Positions 32,899 to 45,578 of a stretch of 64,000 nucleotides of DNA are shown here, piece by piece. How positions within the stretch are numbered: the first letter of the stretch is position 1; every line of letters starts with the position of its first letter. The notes under the pieces are model-generated. The model searched no databases, was not told where the DNA came from, and was given only the letters and a program-made list of their open reading frames with translations. The translations under genes were made by a program, and so were the position numbers. Origin of the DNA: Natronomonas gomsonensis (lineage in GTDB: Archaea > Halobacteriota > Halobacteria > Halobacteriales > Haloarculaceae). The stretch covers positions 1,054,001 to 1,118,000 of the forward strand of contig NZ_CP101323.1 of NCBI RefSeq assembly GCF_024300825.1. The letters run 5' to 3'.

Positions 32899-34182
32899 CT
32901 ACTCGCTCACGGCTTTGCCGTTCGCTTCGTTGAGGGTGGGGCTTTCGCGTGGACTCCCGTTCTGGCCACTGCTGGCAGGCTCATAATCGCCGTTCACGTT
33001 CAACATCCCGCGATTCAAGCGCACGTTTACGGGTGCGCCTCCGCCCGACGACGTTTGCGCCGAGCGGAGATGCTTCAGACCGATGTTCTTCGCCGCGTTG
33101 TAGTCCGCGTGCGGTGAGTACCCGCACTTCAGACACTCGAATACGTCCTGTCCGTCCGATGTCGGGCGGCTGTTCTCGTGAGTGAACCCACACTTAGAAC
33201 ACCGCTGGCTCGTGTACGCGGGACTCACCTGCTCGACCGAGATACCCTCTACTTCGGCCTTATACTCGACGTAGTCGTACAGTCGACGGAACGCCCATGC
33301 GTGGAACTTCTTGGCACGAGGCATCCGCTCACGAATCCCCGTCAGGTTCTCAAACGCGATTACGTCACAGTCGTGTTCGACGGCTTCCGCGACGAGTTCC
33401 TTCGAGACAGTGTGTAAGAAGTGGTCGTAGCGGCCTGTCTCCGTGCGTCCGACCGATTTCATAGTTTCGTGAGCGGCTCGCGTTCCACGCTGTTGAAGCG
33501 ACCCGCGCCGCTTCTCAAACTCGCGGTGCCAGTGGTTCACCTCCGACCCGTTCCAGAACTCGCCGGTTGAGGTGACAGCGACGTTTTCGATGCCAAGGTC
33601 AACGCCGAGGACTGTGCTGTGCTCGTCGTTGCCGTCGTCGGCAGTCTCGAACTCCACGTCCGCCTTTGTTCGGACGTGAAGGTAGAACTCACCATCTCGG
33701 TAGTGGAGTTCTGCGCCCGTCACTTCGTAGTCGTCGTTGAATAGGTACTCCGAGTGGGGCGTCTCGCGGCCCTCGTCGGGAAGAACGTACTCGGCAGTGA
33801 TGCGTCCTTCGACGGTTGAGAGCGTTGCGTGGTCGTCGTTGAACGTCGCACATCGCTTGTCATAGACGAGCGTCGGGGCGGTGAAGTTCGGTTTCCCCGC
33901 GTAGTCACCGTGCTTCCACCGAGCGACGACGCTCTGGACGGCGTCGGCGGCCTTGTTGCGGGCGTTCTGGACGAGATTCGCTTGGAGTCTCGTTTCGGCC
34001 CGCACGTCGTCGTAGGTTTCGCGTTGAAGTTCGGCTTTGCTCGTAGTCTTGTACTCGCCTTGCCATGCGTGGTCGACGACGTAGTTGGCGGCCCACAGGA
34101 ACTCGGAGATGGTTTCGTGGAGGAGGTCGGCGTCGCTGTCGGCCACGTCAAGTTTGACGGGGACGGTGCGACGTACCTCCAT
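32899..34182 (-). CDS. tnpB: RNA-guided endonuclease TnpB, intact catalytic residues
   Basis: The 427-residue protein has the split RuvC nuclease with all three acidic residues: Asp195 in [11 protein letters not shown], Glu278 in AFENLTG, and Asp360 in [11 protein letters not shown]. The zinc ribbon has CSKC (328-331) and CLKC (350-353). Known TnpBs use an RNA made from the element's right end to cut the empty donor site, helping the element persist. Here the last 50 residues overlap the right-end hairpin, so the RNA and the coding sequence share DNA. GTATAAAGG (34207-34215) lies about 29 nt before the ATG, so it looks expressed. No TnpA gene is adjacent. Confidence 0.88.
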
Positions 34183-35065: not shown

Positions 35066-35560
35066 ATGTCGAACCACTATCTCACCTCCGAGGAACATCT
35101 TCCCGAGGAGCCAGGGACCGAGACGACCCTCCAGATAACCGACGCCGAGACGAAACGCATCTTCGAGGCGCGGGTGCGCATCGCCCGCGAACCGGACGAG
35201 CTCACCGACCCGTCTCGGTTGACGGTCGTCGCGGGACCACACGAGAGCGTCCGAAAGGAGTGGTACGTGGAACTGCTCGACGAGGTCGATGCGGCCGGCA
35301 TCAACGAGGACCTGCTCCGCCGGCTTGCCGACGAGCAGGCCTCGACCTCGAACATCATCAACACGCGCTCGAACGACCTGAAGGTGGTGCTGCGGTATCT
35401 CGTCGAGTCGGGTCAGTACGAGTCGACTGCGGCCGCACTCCGAAAAATCGCCTTCGAACAACTCGCAACCGAACGGCCAGCCTTGCTGGAGGCCTACGAG
35501 AGCGTTCGGACCGAGTTCGAGAGCGACCCGCTCCGGGATGCGCTCTCGGAGCGTGAGTGA
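35066..35560 (+). CDS. Conserved-looking helical protein of unknown function, head of the UbiD operon
   Basis: The 164-residue acidic protein starts MSNHYLTSEEHLPEEPG. It has a mixed N-terminal half (TTLQITDAETKRIFEARVRIA) and a helical C-terminal half with LLRRLADEQASTSNIINTRSNDLKVVLRYLVESGQYES, which could hold a helix-turn-helix-like or oligomerisation unit. I do not recognise the family. Its stop overlaps the UbiD start (TGATG), so it is translationally coupled to the decarboxylase and may be a small subunit, chaperone or regulator of it. I see no clear TATA box nearby. Confidence 0.65.
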   Translation: MSNHYLTSEEHLPEEPGTETTLQITDAETKRIFEARVRIAREPDELTDPSRLTVVAGPHESVRKEWYVELLDEVDAAGINEDLLRRLADEQASTSNIINTRSNDLKVVLRYLVESGQYESTAAALRKIAFEQLATERPALLEAYESVRTEFESDPLRDALSERE

Positions 35561-37062
35561 TGGCGGTCGATTCGTTCCGTGCGTACCTCGACCGGTTGGC
35601 CGACGCCGGTGATCTCGCCGAGTTCGAGGCGGGCGTCTCCTGGGACTTGGAGGCGAGTGCGATTACGATGCTCGCCAACCAACGCGACGGTCCAATTCCG
35701 GCGTTTCGGTCGATAGCGGAATCGGAGACCGACGCTGTCCTCGTGGGAGACCCCTACCGCGGCTCCCGCGAACGACCGTGGGACCGTATCGCCCGCTCCC
35801 TCGGGATGGCGAGTGACCTGAGCGGCGCCGACTACTACGCGGCTGTCATCGACCGGCTCTCCTCGCCTCGGGAGCCACGCGTCGTCGACCGTCCGGCCGC
35901 ACCCTGCAAGGAGGTCGTCAAGACCGGCGGCGACGTCGACCTCCTGTCGTTCCCGTGGCCCTACATCCATCAAGGCGACGGCGGCCGCTACTCGAACCTC
36001 CAGACGCTTGTCGCGCCGGCACCCGACAGCGAGTGGGGCCGCTGGTCGAGCCATCGCATGATGCTCCACGACGAGACGCAGGCGAGTCTGCTCCTGTTGG
36101 CCGGCGAGCAGGTGCCGAACCTCTATTACTACCAGTACGAGCGTTGCGACCAGCCGATGCCGGTCGCCGCGGTCATCGGCGCCGAACCCGCCGTCGAGTA
36201 CAGCGCCGACATGTGGATTCCCAGCGGGCGGAGCGAGGCGACGTTCGCGGGCGGGCTGAAAGAAGAGCCCGTCGACCTCGTTCCCTGTGAGACGAGCGAC
36301 CTCTTGGTGCCGGCGTCGGCGGAACTCGTCATCGAGGGGCGCGTACTGCCCGGCGAACGCCTCGACGAGGGGCCGTTCGGCGATTACTTCGGCTACATGA
36401 ACGGGCCGCGCCGGTCGATGCCGACCTTCGAAATCGACGCGATTACCCACCGGAGGGCGCCGCGTGTCCCCTTCTGTGTCGAAGGGTCGGGCGTGGGCTA
36501 CGACCGGAACTCCAGTAGCACGCTGGAAGTCACCGCTGCCGGCCCCGACGCGACGCTGGGGCTCCGTGCGGCGGGGTTCGATGTCGAGTTCGCGGTGCCG
36601 TGGCGGTTCACCTCTCGGACGGTCTGGGTCATCGCCACCGACTGCCCCTATCCGGGCTATCTCCACGAACTCGCCAACTTCATCTTCACGACGTGGGGGA
36701 TGCTCCACATCGACTTTTTCGTCTTCGTGGACGCCGATGTCGACCCCTTCGACCCTCGGGCAGTCCTGACGGCGTTCGCCCTTGAGGCTGACCCCGACGA
36801 GGATTTCCACCAGTTCGGCGTCGAGCGCATGCCGAAGGTCCCGCTCAACATCTATCAGACGCCCGATGAGAAGGAGGGCGCCGACGTGGGGACGTCAAAG
36901 GCCAAGACGGCGAAGGCCTACGTCGACGCGACGACCGACGGCGAGCGGATACGGCGTCACGCCGACGAAGAGCTACGGAAACGGGCACGGGCGGTTCTCC
37001 GGGAGGCAGGCGTCTCAGGGGCCGAGTTCGGCTCCGACGAGTCGAGGGGTGAGACCGAGTGA
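35560..37062 (+). CDS. UbiD-family prenylated-FMN decarboxylase (catalytic residues present)
   Basis: The 500-residue UbiD-type protein keeps the catalytic triad region: Arg166 in SSHRMMLHDE, Glu270 and Asp275 in LDEGPFGDYFGYM. The spacing (104 and 5 residues) equals that of Arg173, Glu277 and Glu282 in fungal Fdc1; Asp at the last site also occurs in E. coli UbiD. It should reversibly decarboxylate an aromatic or alpha,beta-unsaturated acid with prenylated FMN, made by a UbiX not in this window. ATG 35560 overlaps the previous stop by 1 nt. The next gene, a degenerate paralogue, overlaps it by 4 nt, and a CoA ligase follows. Confidence 0.86.
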   Translation: MAVDSFRAYLDRLADAGDLAEFEAGVSWDLEASAITMLANQRDGPIPAFRSIAESETDAVLVGDPYRGSRERPWDRIARSLGMASDLSGADYYAAVIDRLSSPREPRVVDRPAAPCKEVVKTGGDVDLLSFPWPYIHQGDGGRYSNLQTLVAPAPDSEWGRWSSHRMMLHDETQASLLLLAGEQVPNLYYYQYERCDQPMPVAAVIGAEPAVEYSADMWIPSGRSEATFAGGLKEEPVDLVPCETSDLLVPASAELVIEGRVLPGERLDEGPFGDYFGYMNGPRRSMPTFEIDAITHRRAPRVPFCVEGSGVGYDRNSSSTLEVTAAGPDATLGLRAAGFDVEFAVPWRFTSRTVWVIATDCPYPGYLHELANFIFTTWGMLHIDFFVFVDADVDPFDPRAVLTAFALEADPDEDFHQFGVERMPKVPLNIYQTPDEKEGADVGTSKAKTAKAYVDATTDGERIRRHADEELRKRARAVLREAGVSGAEFGSDESRGETE

Positions 37063-38486
37063 TTCCATTTGCGGATTATCTGCGCGGCCTGCGGCGCGAC
37101 GACGACTTGGTGGCCATCACCGACGGTCAACGGGACGACGTTCCGGTGGACGTCCTCGCGGCGGAGGCGCTGGATGGAAACGGTCCGGCACTCCGGTTCG
37201 AGCGAGACGACGGCGTCGACCTGGCAAGCGGCGTCTTCAGCGGCCCGGACCAGATGCACTGCCGTGAGTCCGCCCCGTGGTCGCGTCTGTCGCTCGGCCT
37301 CGGCCTCGATGTCGAGGCGCCGCTCGTGGACCTGCTGGATACCGTCGTCTGTCTCGGGCCGACCGGAACCCCCGAGAAAACCACCTACACCCCACAGGCG
37401 GCCTCGCGGACACTGGAGGACCTACAGGCGCTTTCGTTCCCGCGTGGTGTCGACGACACGTGGCCGGTCATCTCCCTCGGTGTCGCCTCGATTACGACCG
37501 ACGACGGCACACACTGGGCGCCGGTCTACGGTGTCGTCGTGAGTACCGACACCCTCCGGGTGCGGGTGCCCGCGTCGCTGGCGTCGCTGTCCGACGACGG
37601 CGACACCGTCGCCATCGCGCTCGGTGTTCCCCCCGCCGCCATCACTGCGGCGTACCTGCTGGCGGTCGCCGACCGGGTCGAAACTCCCATCCGAGAGACC
37701 GGTGTCGAGGGGGCGGTACCGCTCGTGCCGACCAACGGCGGTCGCGTCCCGAGCGCGACGGAGGTCGTCGTCGAGGCGACCGTCGCCGATTCCCAGCCCG
37801 ATTTCGAACCCGACCGGCGGGAGGCCTGGGAGCATGCCGTCGCGGGAGCATCACTCGCTCTCGATGTGACCCGCGTCGTCGCGACCGACGACCCGGTCGT
37901 CCCCATTTCGCCGGTCGGACAGCCGATGGCGGACGACCTCCAGTTGACCGGGCTGACGACGGCGGCCCACCTCTATCATCGCGTCAACAACTACTGGGGC
38001 ATCTCCCCGGTCGAGTGGCTCCTGCTCCCGCCGTCGACGGAACTCGGGGTCTGTTTCGTGGCAAGCGACGTACTTTACGCCGGCTTCGAGTGGCAACTCG
38101 CCAACATCCTGTTTTCCTTCTCGTCGCTGTTCGATACGGTCGTCATCGTCGACGACGACGTCCCATCGTGGGATTTCGGCCGCGTGTTGAGCGATATCTG
38201 GGTGAAGGCCCACCCCTCTCGGGACTGGCTTTTCAGCGAACCGGACGCGCCTGCGGCGAAACGCCCCAACTACCGACAGGACGGGACGACCGGTGCCAGA
38301 CTGTACGTGGACGCGACGTGGGACCCCCGTTGGGACGACTCCTATCTCGCCCCGCGGGTCACATTCGGGAAGTCCTTCCCCGAATCGGTTCGTGAACTGG
38401 CCCGGGAGTTCTGGTCGGCCCGAGGGTTGGAACCGGCCGACTGCGACCCGATAGCCGATGACCTCGATGGCGATTCTACGGGGTGA
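37059..38486 (+). CDS. Degenerate UbiD paralogue, probable non-catalytic partner
   Basis: The 475-residue protein aligns with the preceding UbiD over its whole length: the N-terminal FADYLRGLRRDDDL, and the C-terminal FEWQLANILFSFSSLFDTVVIVDDDV corresponds to LHELANFIFTTWGMLHIDFFVFVDADV. In the middle the catalytic Arg is replaced (PVYGVVVSTDTL where the partner has SSHRMMLHDETQ) and the EGPFGD segment is gone (VPTNGGRVPSATEV). It therefore should not decarboxylate by itself and may be a structural or regulatory subunit. It starts with GTG, overlapping the upstream stop by 4 nt (GTGA), which implies a fixed ratio of the two. Family membership is clear, the role is inferred. Confidence 0.75.
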   Translation: MIPFADYLRGLRRDDDLVAITDGQRDDVPVDVLAAEALDGNGPALRFERDDGVDLASGVFSGPDQMHCRESAPWSRLSLGLGLDVEAPLVDLLDTVVCLGPTGTPEKTTYTPQAASRTLEDLQALSFPRGVDDTWPVISLGVASITTDDGTHWAPVYGVVVSTDTLRVRVPASLASLSDDGDTVAIALGVPPAAITAAYLLAVADRVETPIRETGVEGAVPLVPTNGGRVPSATEVVVEATVADSQPDFEPDRREAWEHAVAGASLALDVTRVVATDDPVVPISPVGQPMADDLQLTGLTTAAHLYHRVNNYWGISPVEWLLLPPSTELGVCFVASDVLYAGFEWQLANILFSFSSLFDTVVIVDDDVPSWDFGRVLSDIWVKAHPSRDWLFSEPDAPAAKRPNYRQDGTTGARLYVDATWDPRWDDSYLAPRVTFGKSFPESVRELAREFWSARGLEPADCDPIADDLDGDSTG

Positions 38487-38660: not shown

Positions 38661-40343
38661 ATGGTCGAAAGCCACAATCTCCCGGACTACGAGTCAGTGC
38701 GTGAAGAGTTCTCGTGGGACGACATCTACGCGGAGGCGGATTGGGATGCACCCGAGGAACTGAACGTTGGACACGAGGTGGCCGACCGCCACGCTACCGA
38801 CCGCGAGAAGGTGGCGCTGTATCAGGTCGGCACCGACGGCGAACTGAACAAACTGACGTTCTGGGAACTGGCCAACCGGTCGAGCCAGTTCGCGAACGTC
38901 CTCGAAGACCTCGGTGTCGAGGAGGGCGACCGGGTTTTCTCGTATATGCCGCGGATTCCCGAACACTACGTCGCCCTCGTGGGAACCCTCAAGCGCGGCG
39001 CCGTCTGGGGGAGCGTCAACGAGCGGTTCGGCCCCGACGGCATCTCCTATCGGCTTGACGACTGTGACGCGAAAGTCGTCGTCACGACCACCGACAACCG
39101 CGACACCGTCGCCGACGCCTTAGACGACGCGCCGACGGTCGAACACGTCATCACCGTCGACCGCGGCACGGGCGCCCCCGCCGAAGACGTCGTCTTCAAC
39201 ACGGCACTGGACGACGCGAGCACCGAGTACGACGCCGCCGAGACCGGCGGCGAAGACGACGCAATGTTGTACTACACCTCCGGGACGACCGGACTGGCGA
39301 AGGGCGTCCTGCATAAACACCGCTGGATTGCGGGCGTCGCCGCTACCCAGCGGTACACCGTCGACCTCCAGGAGGGTGACCTCTACTGGTCGACCGGCGA
39401 CCTCGGCTGGCTGACCGGGGCCATCAACACCCTCGGTGCGTGGTTCTGGGGGAGTTCGCTGTTCACCTACGAGGGCGAGTTCGATCCCGAGGAGTGGGCC
39501 GACCTCCTCGACGAATACCCCATTACCGTCCTGTTTTCGGTGCCGACGGCCTACCGGATGCTCCGCGAACACGAGGAGGTCCTCGAAGGCGTCGACCTCG
39601 ACCTCCGACATGCGCTGTCCATCGGCGAACCCCTCTCTGCGGGCGTCGTCGAGTGGGGCGAGGAGTCGCTGGGCGTCACCATCCTCGACACCTACGGCCA
39701 GACCGAGACGGGCAACATGATTATCAACAACTACCCGACGATGGAACTCCGTCCCGGCTCGATGGGCAAACCCCTCCCGGGCATCGAGGCGGACATCGTC
39801 GACCCCGAGACGGGCGAGGTGCTCGAACCGGGCGAGACCGGCGAAATCGCCGAGCGCGGTGAGTACCCCTGCTTCTTCGACGAATACTGGCAAAAGCCCG
39901 AGAAGACCGCCGACTGCTTCATCGACGGGCCAGACGGCGAGTGGTATCTCTCCGGTGACCTCGCACACAAAGACGAGGACGGCTACTTCTGGTTCGAAGG
40001 ACGGGCCGACGACGTGATTCTCTCCTCGGGCTACCGCATCGGCCCCTTCGAGGTCGAGAGTTCACTCGGCGAGCACGAAGCCGTCGCCGAGACCGCGGTC
40101 GTCCCCAAGCCTCACCCCGAGCGGGGCAACATCGTCAAGGCCTACGTCGTGCCCAGCGAGGGCGCTACCCCCTCCGAGGACCTGAAGGAGACCGTCAAGA
40201 CCCACGTGAAGGAGGAACTGTCCGCCCACGAGTACCCCCGCGAAATCGAGTTCGTCGAGGAACTACCCAAGACGGTGACCGGGAAGATTCGACGGACCGA
40301 ACTGCAAGACGAGGCCGAAGAAGAGGCCGACGTGAGCGCCTGA
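38661..40343 (+). CDS. Acyl-CoA ligase (AMP-forming, acetyl/propionyl-CoA synthetase-like)
   Basis: The 560-residue ANL-family ligase has the P-loop YYTSGTTGLAKGV, the adenylate motif LDTYGQTETGN, YLSGDLAHKDEDGY and the C-terminal lysine segment PKTVTGKIRRTEL. It activates a carboxylic acid with ATP and CoA. The overall pattern (WSTGDLGWLTG, FTYEGEF) resembles acetyl/medium-chain acyl-CoA synthetases; the exact acid is not decided by the sequence. It starts a block with an acyl-CoA dehydrogenase, a biotin carboxylase system and a MaoC dehydratase, so the acid may be the product of the upstream UbiD pair or a parallel substrate. Confidence 0.87.
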   Translation: MVESHNLPDYESVREEFSWDDIYAEADWDAPEELNVGHEVADRHATDREKVALYQVGTDGELNKLTFWELANRSSQFANVLEDLGVEEGDRVFSYMPRIPEHYVALVGTLKRGAVWGSVNERFGPDGISYRLDDCDAKVVVTTTDNRDTVADALDDAPTVEHVITVDRGTGAPAEDVVFNTALDDASTEYDAAETGGEDDAMLYYTSGTTGLAKGVLHKHRWIAGVAATQRYTVDLQEGDLYWSTGDLGWLTGAINTLGAWFWGSSLFTYEGEFDPEEWADLLDEYPITVLFSVPTAYRMLREHEEVLEGVDLDLRHALSIGEPLSAGVVEWGEESLGVTILDTYGQTETGNMIINNYPTMELRPGSMGKPLPGIEADIVDPETGEVLEPGETGEIAERGEYPCFFDEYWQKPEKTADCFIDGPDGEWYLSGDLAHKDEDGYFWFEGRADDVILSSGYRIGPFEVESSLGEHEAVAETAVVPKPHPERGNIVKAYVVPSEGATPSEDLKETVKTHVKEELSAHEYPREIEFVEELPKTVTGKIRRTELQDEAEEEADVSA

Positions 40344-40421: not shown

Positions 40422-41588
40422 ATGAATTTCGAAACTACACAGGAGCGTTCGATGATACGCTCGACCGCCGAGGATATCGCGGGCGAGTACGGACCGGAGT
40501 ACTGGCGTGAGAAAGAAGAAGACGGCGAGTTCGCCCAGGCGTTCTGGGACGAACTCGGCGAGGCCGGCTTCCACGGCCTGCTGGTGCCCGAGGAGTACGA
40601 GGGCGCCGGCATGGGCATGCAGGAGATGGGCCTTGCCATGGAGACGCTGTGTGCGGAAGGCTGTGGCATGGCCGGCACCTGGTATCTGGTGTTGACCGCC
40701 GGGATGGCCGCCGTCGGCATCCGCGAGCACGGCACCGACGAACAGAAGGAACGGTACCTGCCCGATATCGCGGCCGGCGACCGGAACTTCTCGATCGGCA
40801 TCACCGAACCAGAGGCGGGCACGAACACGCTCAACGTCGCGACCCGCGCCGAGAAGGACGGCGACGAGTACGTCCTCAACGGGAACAAGGCGTGGATTAC
40901 CTTCTCCGACCGGGCCGACAACATGATTCTCGTCACACGGACGACGCCGCGTGAGGAGGTCGACCGCGGCGTCGACGGCATCAGCCTGTTCATCGTCGAC
41001 ATGGACGACCCCGGTATCGACGTTTCGCCCATCCCCAAACACGGCATCAACTACTCGAAGTCCTGTGAGGTCTTCATCGAGGACGTCCGCGTCCCCGAGG
41101 AGAACCTGCTTGGCGAGAAAGACGGCGGCTGGTGGACGCTGGTCGACATGCTCAACCCCGAGCGTATCGGCTTTGCCGCCGCTGGGACCGGAATCGGCAA
41201 ACTCGCGGCGGATACCGCCATCGAGTACGCCAACGACCGCGAGGTGTTCGACGCACCCGTCGGGAGCCATCAGGGCGTCTCCTTCCCCATCACCCAGGCC
41301 TACGCGGAGATGGAGACGGCGACGCTGATGCGCGAGAAGGCCGCCTGGCTCTACGACCAAGGCGAGGACTGCGGCTACGAGACCAACGTCGCGAAGGCGA
41401 CGGCCGTCAACGCCGGCATCGAGGCGGTCAAACAGTCGATGCAGGCCTTCGGCGGCTGGGGCTACGCCAAGGAGTACGACGTCGAGCGCTGGTGGCGGGA
41501 AATCAACCTCACGCGACTGGCGCCGGTCTCCCAGCAGATGGCGTACAACCACATCAGCCAGCAACTCGGCTTCCCGAAGTCCTACTGA
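40422..41588 (+). CDS. Acyl-CoA dehydrogenase
   Basis: The 388-residue flavoprotein has [25 protein letters not shown], and [27 protein letters not shown]. At its C-terminal end it reads [22 protein letters not shown]: the EGT-type catalytic signature is replaced by a TRLAPVS form, known from other acyl-CoA dehydrogenases such as FadE-type ones. It probably oxidises the ligase product to an enoyl-CoA, which the carboxylase could then extend. It begins 78 nt after the ligase and ends 2 nt before the biotin carboxylase gene, so it is in the same operon. Confidence 0.85.
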
Positions 41589-41590
41589 CC

Positions 41591-43366
<1,776 letters not shown>

Positions 43367-43371
43367 TACCA

Positions 43372-45099
43372 ATGCGCATCAGAGTCTCCGACGACACGAC
43401 CGACGTACAGGCACGGGCGATAGCCGAGGCGATGGCAACCCATTACGGAGACGACGTGACGGTCGTCGACGACGACGGCGCGGTACTCGGCGAGGCGACC
43501 TACGACGGCGGCGATGCCGGAAGGTCGGCCGACACCGAACCCATCGACGACGACCTCGGGCCGACCGAACGCGAAGAGACACTCCTCGAGCAAATCGAGG
43601 AAATCGAATCGGGAGGCAAAGAGAAGTACAAGGAGCAACTGCCCGAGGAGGGCAAACTGTTCGTCCGGGACCGCATCGACCTGTGGTTCGGCGACGACGG
43701 CTTTCTCTTCGAGGATGGCACGTTCGCGGAGTTCGACGCCGACGACGTGCTGCCGGCGGACGGTCTCATCACCGGCGGCGCGGAGTTCGAAGACCGCGAT
43801 GTCCATTTCATGGCCAACGACTACACCGTCAAACGCGGGAGCATGGCCGCCAAGGGCGTCGAGAAGTTCCTCCGCATGCAGCAACGCGCCCTCAAAACGG
43901 GGCAACCGGTGTTGTACCTGATGGACTCTTCGGGCGGTCGCATCGACCAGCAGACCGGCTTTTTCGCCAACCGCGAGGGAATCGGGAAGTACTACTACAA
44001 CCACTCCCGACTTTCGGGCCGCGTTCCACAGATTTGCGTCCTGTATGGCCCCTGTATCGCCGGCGCCGCGTACACGCCGGTCTTCGCGGATTTCACCGTC
44101 ATGGTCCGCGGGATGAGCGCGATGGCTATCGCCTCTCCTCGGATGGTCGAGATGGTCACCGGCGAGGACATCGGACTGCAGGAACTCGGCGGCCCGGACG
44201 TACACGCGAAACACTCCGGTAGCGCCGACCTCATCGCCGAAGACGAGGAACACGCCCGGGAGCTGGTCGCCCAACTCATCAGTTACCTGCCGGACAACAG
44301 CGACGAGGACCCGCCGCGGGCAACGCCGAAGCCGCCGAAGTACGCTCCGAAGGGCATCGACTCGGTGATTCCACAGGAACCCAACAAGGGCTACGACATG
44401 TTCGACGTCATCGACCGCGTGGTCGATGCGGGGTCGGTGCTGGAGCTCCGTCCGGAGTACGGCAAGGAGATTATCACGTCGTTCGCCCGAATCGACGGGC
44501 GGCCGGTCGGTATCGTCGCCAACCAACCCAACCACCGGGCCGGGGCCATCTTCCCCGATGCCGCCGAGAAAGCCGCCGAGTTCATCTGGACCTGCGACGC
44601 CTACAACATCCCGCTTCTGTATCTGTCGGACACGCCGGGCTTCATGGCCGGTTCACAGGTCGAAAAGGACGGGATTCTGGAGCAGGGCAAGAAGATGATT
44701 TACGCTACCTCCAGCGCGACGGTGCCGAAGCAGTGTGTCGTCGTCCGGAAGGCCTACGGCGCCGGCATCTACGCGATGTCGGGGCCGGCCTACGACCCCG
44801 AATCGACCATCGCACTCCCCTCCGGCGAAATCGGCATCATGGGACCGGAAGCGGCCATCAACGCGGTCTACGCCCGCAAACTCGCCGAAATCGACGACCC
44901 CGAAGAGCGCGAGCGGAAAGAACAGGAACTCCGCGAGGAGTACCGCGAGGACATCGACGTTCGCCGGATGGCCAGCGAAGTCGTCATCGACGACGTGATT
45001 CCGCCGTCGAGTCTGCGCGAGCAACTCGAACGACGGTTCGCGTTCTACGAGGGCATCGAGAAGGACCTGCCAGACAAGAAACACGGGACCGTTCTCTGA
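43372..45099 (+). CDS. Acyl-CoA carboxylase, carboxyltransferase subunit with extra N-terminal domain
   Basis: The 575-residue subunit is a crotonase-fold carboxyltransferase (LMDSSGGRIDQQTGFF, PQICVLYGPCIAGAAYTPVFAD for acyl-CoA; YLSDTPGFMAGSQVEKDGILEQGKKMIYA for biotin; EIGIMGPEAAINAVY). The first 80 or so residues (MRIRVSDDTTD...) form a small acidic module not usual for the family. The substrate side has the MVRG-M-S-A-M-A-I-A-S-P pattern of 3-methylcrotonyl/geranyl-type rather than classic propionyl enzymes, suggesting an unsaturated acyl-CoA; confidence in that is modest. It starts 5 nt after its partner. Confidence 0.87.
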   Translation: MRIRVSDDTTDVQARAIAEAMATHYGDDVTVVDDDGAVLGEATYDGGDAGRSADTEPIDDDLGPTEREETLLEQIEEIESGGKEKYKEQLPEEGKLFVRDRIDLWFGDDGFLFEDGTFAEFDADDVLPADGLITGGAEFEDRDVHFMANDYTVKRGSMAAKGVEKFLRMQQRALKTGQPVLYLMDSSGGRIDQQTGFFANREGIGKYYYNHSRLSGRVPQICVLYGPCIAGAAYTPVFADFTVMVRGMSAMAIASPRMVEMVTGEDIGLQELGGPDVHAKHSGSADLIAEDEEHARELVAQLISYLPDNSDEDPPRATPKPPKYAPKGIDSVIPQEPNKGYDMFDVIDRVVDAGSVLELRPEYGKEIITSFARIDGRPVGIVANQPNHRAGAIFPDAAEKAAEFIWTCDAYNIPLLYLSDTPGFMAGSQVEKDGILEQGKKMIYATSSATVPKQCVVVRKAYGAGIYAMSGPAYDPESTIALPSGEIGIMGPEAAINAVYARKLAEIDDPEERERKEQELREEYREDIDVRRMASEVVIDDVIPPSSLREQLERRFAFYEGIEKDLPDKKHGTVL

Positions 45100-45101
45100 G
45101 T

Positions 45102-45578
45102 ATGGCGGGCAAGTACTTCGAGGAGTTCGAGGTCGGCGAGACCATCGAACACGACAAGCGGCGTACCATCAGCGAAAGCGACAACCAGCAGTTTTGCGAT
45201 ATGACGATGAACCAGCAACCGCTCCATCTGGACGCGGAGTTCGCCGCCGACACCCAGTTCGGCGACCGACTGGTCAACGGACTCTACACGATGAGCCTCG
45301 CCGTCGGCCTCACGATTCCGGATACGACCGACGGCACCATCGTCGCGAACCTCTCGTATGACAACGTCGAACACCCCAATCCCGTCTTTCACGGGGATAC
45401 CGTCCGGGTGCAATCGACGGTGACGGATAAACGCGAGACCTCCGACGGCGAACGCGGCATCGTCACGATGCACGTCGAGGTGTTCGCGGTCAACCGCGAA
45501 ACAGAGGACGGCGAGGAAGTGCTGGTCTGTGCGTTCGACCGAACGGCGCTGTCGCTGAAGAAGGCAAACGTCGAGTAA
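45102..45578 (+). CDS. MaoC-family hot-dog dehydratase
   Basis: The 158-residue hot-dog-fold protein has the hydratase motif QQPLHLDAEFA, related to GD-x-NPLHxD where Asp and His activate water; here the residue before is Asn (MNQQPLH) and an earlier MTMNQQ takes the Asp site, as in mesaconyl/beta-methylmalyl-CoA-type members. It likely hydrates the carboxylated enoyl-CoA made upstream. The start follows the carboxyltransferase by 2 nt, so it is the last gene of the plus-strand operon, converging on a metallo-hydrolase gene. Confidence 0.83.
   Translation: MAGKYFEEFEVGETIEHDKRRTISESDNQQFCDMTMNQQPLHLDAEFAADTQFGDRLVNGLYTMSLAVGLTIPDTTDGTIVANLSYDNVEHPNPVFHGDTVRVQSTVTDKRETSDGERGIVTMHVEVFAVNRETEDGEEVLVCAFDRTALSLKKANVE

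Follow-up and report, generated by a model that had tools for sequence, protein, structure and literature searches.

Three adjoining genes in the window, i.e., the whole stretch of 64,000 nucleotides of Natronomonas gomsonensis DNA that was analyzed, probably encode an obligate heteromeric UbiD-type (de)carboxylase. The proposed enzyme would combine a catalytically intact UbiD subunit (UbiD1) with a catalytically dead UbiD partner (UbiD2) and an obligate third component (p164), and would function without UbiX. We hold this reading with slightly more belief than doubt. What was read directly from the genomes, as described below, is the order of the genes, their co-occurrence and joint evolution, the lost residues and the absence of UbiX. 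The three genes lie head to tail in the order p164, UbiD1 and UbiD2:

35066..35560, plus strand: p164, first gene of the cassette, 164 aa, a family without known match (profile matches in the pair genomes)
35560..37062, plus strand: UbiD1, subunit of the UbiD family that has kept the Arg-Glu-Asp triad, 500 aa, ATG start (Pfam UbiD, 1.4e-62)
37059..38486, plus strand: UbiD2, partner with a UbiD fold but no EGPFGD catalytic region, 475 aa, GTG start (UbiD_C, 7.8e-12)

The genes for p164 and UbiD1 overlap by 1 nt (TGATG) and those for UbiD1 and UbiD2 by 4 nt (GTGA), the latter as described in the earlier note on this DNA, whose open reading frames we also recovered. Of the 52 loci listed, 48 had a UbiD1–UbiD2 overlap of precisely 4 nt, which is thus not a chance feature of the window. 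The host genome (3.65 Mb, 99.99% complete) contained only two UbiD_C matches, which were UbiD1 and UbiD2. In the near relative Natronomonas sp. CBA1123, UbiD2 is 96% identical to that of the window.

UbiD1 matched the Pfam families UbiD (211 bits), UbiD_C (54.2 bits) and UbiD_N (35.2 bits), all above cut-off. When it was aligned with Fdc1 of yeast, HudA and haloarchaeal UbiDs of the ordinary type, its residues R166, E270 and D275 (R175, E280 and D285 in yeast Fdc1 numbering) were invariant in 53/53 homologues, and their spacing of 104 and 5 residues was the same as that of R173, E277 and E282 in Fdc1 of A. niger (PMC5818171), which bears out the earlier description of UbiD1 as keeping this triad with Fdc1 spacing. 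Conservation of UbiD1 was 0.82 in the C-terminal domain and 0.79 in the flavin domain. Two other positions differed from those of Fdc1. At the position of yeast Fdc1 N170, nearly all UbiD1 proteins had D, R, H, S or T, of which Asp was the commonest and Arg was found in the window copy; almost all other UbiDs compared had Asn and HudA had Ser. Judging from Fdc1 structures, we take this Asn to be a metal ligand that helps hold Mn2+ at the cofactor phosphate. At the second position, UbiD1 had an invariant Gln where Fdc1 has His.

UbiD2 matched UbiD_C above cut-off, the UbiD rift domain just below it (1e-4) and UbiD_N at 0.004. Its structural model aligned with solved UbiD structures at Z scores of 25–32, including that of HmfF (6h6x; Z 32.3, rmsd 3.1, 358 residues), which agrees with the suggestion that UbiD2 is homologous to UbiDs along its length. 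The EGPFGD motif was kept in none of the 54 UbiD2 homologues (0/54), and UbiD2 lacks the E-R-E/D triad. The loss of both the Arg and the EGPFGD region had been proposed, of which only the latter holds for the whole family: at the Arg position (yeast 175) the window copy has Tyr, but 29 of 54 homologues have an aligned Arg, whose loss therefore does not extend to the entire family. The omega values of UbiD2 between close relatives, mostly about 0.05–0.3, indicate purifying selection. Its C-terminal domain, which forms oligomers in known UbiDs, was the best conserved part (0.76, vs. 0.53 for the flavin domain), and UbiD2 also has invariant residues of its own, such as those in the WQLAN and WVKAHP stretches; W313, W345 and K383 are among its invariant positions.

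Among 292 haloarchaeal genomes, UbiD2 was found in 67 from 21 genera; UbiD1 adjoined it in all 67, and UbiD2 was found alone in none, which gives an affirmative answer to the earlier question of whether the pair always co-occurs. A 68th match (G286) was an ordinary UbiD. It should be noted that these counts treat genomes as independent of phylogeny. The p164 profile was run against a 247-genome sample that held 61 pair genomes; it gave a strong match in 61/61 pair genomes and no other strong match in the sample, and nearly every locus had p164 upstream of UbiD1. One genome (G213) carried two pairs, one without an adjoining p164 and the other with a truncated p164, while an intact orphan p164 was located about 0.7–0.9 Mb away among unrelated genes. 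The persistence of this unlinked copy argues that p164 is functionally needed and not just carried along. Beyond the haloarchaea, a contig scan for UbiD2 yielded 61 loci, all of which were haloarchaeal judging by the record titles, and a 392-genome phylum sample added only the tandem pairs of two other archaea (G493 and G465). Within haloarchaea, the trees of UbiD1 and UbiD2 were congruent, apart from weak deep forks. The co-occurrence, purifying selection, C-terminal domain conservation and mirrored trees together fit an obligate heteromer with a non-catalytic partner. This part of the earlier proposal is thus consistent with our results; its remark that no such UbiD heteromer had been described is not, given that phenylphosphate carboxylase requires two UbiD-like subunits (PMC7500099).

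UbiX has been called obligate for all UbiDs (PMC8379154). The UbiX model TIGR00421 had no match in the genome of the window and none above cut-off in any of the 67 pair genomes (0/67). It scored above cut-off in 23 of the 292 haloarchaea, which were exactly the 23 with UbiD_C matches but no pair; the chance probability of zero overlap between UbiX genomes and pair genomes was 0.002, with genomes treated as independent. The laboratory haloarchaeon Haloferax volcanii yielded neither a UbiX nor a UbiD_C match in the control sets. The wider Flavoprotein family PF02441 had a single match in each pair genome (67/67), CoaBC-like and mostly in frames of about 390–450 aa, and two matches in each of eight UbiX-bearing haloarchaeal controls (8/8). 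With both models applied to the 67 pair genomes and controls in 23 and 8 haloarchaea, a UbiX that is present but was missed can be ruled out. Several cassettes are located on plasmids and therefore seem to travel without UbiX.

The absence of UbiX from the pair genomes and the loss of the Asn in UbiD1 suggest that the pair probably does without prFMN from UbiX and is likely to use FMN or a different cofactor. The changes at the Asn and His positions fit an altered cofactor. HudA uses prFMN (PMC7976604) and has Ser at the N170 position, so prFMN can be used without this Asn. The Asp common in UbiD1 could still bind metal, and the residue loss alone does not exclude prFMN. As no pair genome contains UbiX, the assumption behind the decarboxylation assay with prFMN that the earlier note had suggested is in doubt.

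The p164 proteins evolve under omega values mostly of 0.04–0.2. They matched no family in Pfam or NCBIfam and nothing in PDB by sequence, nor credibly by fold. The AF2 model (pLDDT 82) is rich in beta structure over its N-terminal half and helical over its C-terminal half; its best Foldseek candidate was a sortase (E 0.01, TM about 0.2) and its best VIA-align candidate had a Z score of 3.6 at an rmsd of 13.9, neither of which is credible. No Pfam, NCBIfam or PDB match linked p164 to LpdD/VdcD, which it may nevertheless resemble even without a fold match. Single members showed sub-threshold similarity over residues about 103–141 to the ribbon-helix-helix proteins ParD and CdrS (E 0.002–0.004), with best scores below the curated cut-offs (18 bits vs. 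100 for CdrS, and 17.2 vs. 46.2 for ParD). The role of p164 may be that of a subunit, a cofactor factor or a regulator; the earlier idea that it is a third part of the enzyme is borne out insofar as the gene is obligate, with a subunit being one option among the three.

In the mechanism proposed here, UbiD1 and UbiD2 would together provide both large subunits of a (de)carboxylase of the UbiD type that is an obligate heteromer, with p164 as its obligate third component. UbiD1 would supply the catalytic Glu-Arg-Asp triad, while UbiD2 would most likely complete a dimer or hexamer and shape the active site or substrate entry. This completing or structural role is considered the most likely one given that UbiD2 has kept the fold and the conserved C-terminal oligomerization domain and lost the catalytic motif. 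The enzyme would be independent of UbiX and most likely employ unmodified FMN or another cofactor, and its substrate is probably an acid, aromatic or conjugated, from which an acyl-CoA pathway is supplied. The physical complex, its catalysis, cofactor and substrate are all predicted from sequence. Tentatively, and with more reserve than for the heteromer itself, we suggest that the cassette is a self-contained (de)carboxylase that dispenses with both UbiX and prFMN, in which the dead UbiD paralogue and p164 would replace what UbiX and prFMN give elsewhere.

The pair may instead still depend on prFMN that is either scavenged or produced by a flavin prenyltransferase without relation to UbiX, perhaps p164 itself; UbiD2 would then be a partner with a role in structure or in handling the cofactor. 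The complete Glu-Arg-Asp triad is retained in UbiD1, and in Fdc1 these residues are located next to prFMN (PMC5818171); p164 is the only other gene found co-occurring in every genome checked and was not detected beside the UbiX-bearing tandem relatives; and prFMN-handling proteins of unrelated folds exist, namely LpdD and PhdC. However, p164 could be assigned to no known fold or family of enzymes, there is no sign of any alternative prenyltransferase, and the usual Asn has been lost from UbiD1, so that we regard a continued need for prFMN as rather unlikely. A role of p164 as a local transcriptional regulator, with the enzyme consisting of UbiD1 and UbiD2 alone, is somewhat easier to accept, although it still falls short of an even chance, and it is compatible with the heteromer favored here. 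It would be consistent with the position of p164 as the first gene of the operon, its persistence when unlinked and its faint resemblance to ParD and CdrS. Those scores are, however, within the range of noise, there is no ribbon-helix-helix match in Pfam, and the AF2 model has no strand at residues about 103–141.

Two further explanations concern UbiD2. That it is not a subunit but a separate UbiD-fold protein, engaged for example in substrate binding or in chaperoning UbiD1, would accord with its weakly conserved flavin domain and its own invariant WQLAN and WVKAHP stretches. Given the gene overlap and joint evolution with UbiD1, and that its best-conserved part is the domain forming oligomers in known UbiDs, we consider such a separate role improbable. 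The loss of catalytic residues could also mark UbiD2 as a decaying, pseudogene-like duplicate of UbiD1, to which we attach next to no probability: omega and conservation rule against decay, UbiD2 is full-length in most of the 67 genomes, and the split between UbiD1 and UbiD2 predates the haloarchaeal cassette.

For the preferred heteromeric enzyme, the neighboring genes offer clues to the pathway. Five lie downstream of the cassette in the window:

38661..40343, plus strand: AMP-dependent acyl-CoA ligase (AMP-binding, 4.1e-77), which adjoins the cassette in many group-A loci
40422..41588, plus strand: acyl-CoA dehydrogenase (Acyl-CoA_dh domains), position conserved in group A
41588..43366, plus strand: biotin carboxylase/biotin carrier subunit of acyl-CoA carboxylase (Biotin_carb, Biotin_lipoyl), position conserved in group A
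43370..45099 (start approximate), plus strand: carboxyltransferase subunit of acyl-CoA carboxylase, a conserved group-A neighbor (open reading frame and annotation at the same position)
45099..45578, plus strand: MaoC-family dehydratase (MaoC, 1.3e-25), position conserved in group A

In Haloarcula sinaiiensis, the gene at the position of the carboxyltransferase is annotated as “acyl-CoA carboxylase subunit beta.” The loci fall into two context groups. Group A (the window, Natrinema, Halorientalis, Natronorubrum and others) has the AMP ligase, acyl-CoA dehydrogenase, biotin-dependent acyl-CoA carboxylase and MaoC dehydratase downstream. Group B (Halalkalicoccus, Haloterrigena, Haloferax and others) has a metallo-beta-lactamase-fold protein, then often a thiolase, an HMG-CoA-synthase/DUF35 fusion, an enoyl-CoA hydratase, oxygenase parts of PaaA/B/C/D-like type, a ferredoxin and an enzyme resembling benzoate-CoA ligase. 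Genes of the PaaA and PaaC families were found elsewhere in the genome of the window, but in only 8 of the 12 genomes tested, which were mostly of group A. The neighbors suggest catabolism of aromatic or branched acyl-CoAs and are best read as an acyl-CoA pathway that activates acids and that, in group B at least, is aromatic.

The tandem pairs of G493 and G465, which are non-haloarchaeal archaea that both possess UbiX, bear on the origin of the cassette. In a quick tree with some long branches, UbiD1 and UbiD2 each grouped with the matching gene of these pairs (SH-aLRT 95 and 97). As in the haloarchaeal cassette, the first gene of each tandem pair is catalytically intact and the second lacks parts of the triad, with EGPFTG in place of EGPFGD in G493, and EGPYLN and loss of the Arg in G465. 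Unlike in the cassette, UbiX is present in the genome, the first gene keeps Asn at the N170 position, and no p164 adjoins. Given that the second genes are already degenerate in genomes that both have UbiX, the split into an active and a degenerate copy, which is older than the haloarchaeal form, probably came first, and UbiX dependence was probably dropped later, when or after p164 joined.

By homology, the cassette is a UbiD system; it would work like a heteromeric UbiD, and its host genomes lack the UbiX that has been treated as universal for the family. A conserved UbiD system in 21 UbiX-less haloarchaeal genera makes the rule of UbiX dependence testable in culturable hosts. The cassette would also show an enzyme family building a heteromer by giving up one active site, and it could yield carboxylases free of an oxygen-sensitive cofactor.

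Among the papers searched, none was relevant to haloarchaeal UbiDs or dead UbiD paralogues. The Fdc1/HudA-type decarboxylases share with UbiD1 the fold, the E-R-E/D triad and its spacing; unlike the cassette, they are encoded by a single gene, use prFMN from UbiX and have no degenerate partner. VdcCD and LpdCD, like the enzyme proposed here, combine a UbiD with a small accessory protein (PMC8379154, PMC10865409), but that protein has a mass of at most about 10 kDa and does not resemble UbiD, and UbiX is required. In the gene cluster for naphthalene carboxylase, four UbiD-like subunits are encoded that have been proposed to form a large complex (PMC12016498). The phenylphosphate carboxylase of Thauera/Azoarcus (PpcA/PpcB) resembles the enzyme predicted for the cassette in its two UbiD-like subunits, additional small subunits and aromatic-acid chemistry. 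In contrast to UbiD1 and UbiD2, however, PpcA and PpcB of Azoarcus both keep the Asn, the Arg and both acidic residues (EGPF[GA]E), and UbiX is encoded in the same cluster. They fall outside both the UbiD1 and UbiD2 clades, and no p164 was found beside the Azoarcus Ppc genes. Descent of the pair from PpcA/PpcB is unsupported, with NCBIfam scores far below cut-off and Ppc placed outside by the tree. The phenylphosphoamidate carboxylase of D. anilini also requires two UbiD-like subunits (Ppc-beta and Ppc-beta2), which are 52% identical, and was reported, from work with refolded proteins, to be active with FMN rather than prFMN (PMC7500099). It is a precedent for the use of FMN proposed here, although separate clusters encode its subunits and its host genome carries a ubiX-like gene (PMC7500099). 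The dead partner, p164 and the absence of UbiX set the haloarchaeal cassette apart from known UbiD heteromers.

Tandem UbiD pairs are also found in two non-haloarchaeal archaea (genomes G493 and G465), in each of which the second copy is degenerate and UbiX, the flavin prenyltransferase, is encoded elsewhere in the genome, away from the pair.

L157:9461-12666 and L159:1-2674, tandem UbiD pairs of G493 and G465
L158:216-2993 (G493 contig 20), additional intact UbiD accompanied by a UbiX of its own

Besides its tandem pair, G493 contains this separate UbiD, near which genes for a thiolase, a DUF35-like protein and an enoyl-CoA hydratase are located.

In the group-B clusters, the haloarchaeal cassettes with a metallo-beta-lactamase-fold gene downstream, this gene directly follows UbiD2 in the 25 loci where it was detected. 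A fusion gene adjoins a thiolase gene in two of these clusters (L074 and L182), and its product looks like a single-chain acyl-transfer complex.

L074:11532-12470 (+), metallo-beta-lactamase-fold protein (equivalents in 25 group-B loci)
L074:12446-13852 (-) and L182:16296-17705 (-), fusion of an HMG-CoA-synthase-like protein with a ChsH2-type zinc ribbon/OB fold

The haloarchaeal genome G213 carries an intact orphan p164 gene distant from both of its UbiD pairs, one of which lacks an adjoining p164 while the other has a truncated p164 (L054).

L185:8474-8980 (G213:C1, ~470.5 kb), intact orphan p164

A short way upstream of the p164-UbiD1-UbiD2 cassette in the window lies an IS605-type TnpB gene, a sign of mobile DNA close to the cassette.

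32899-34182 (-), TnpB with OrfB_IS605 and Cas12f1-like TNB domains
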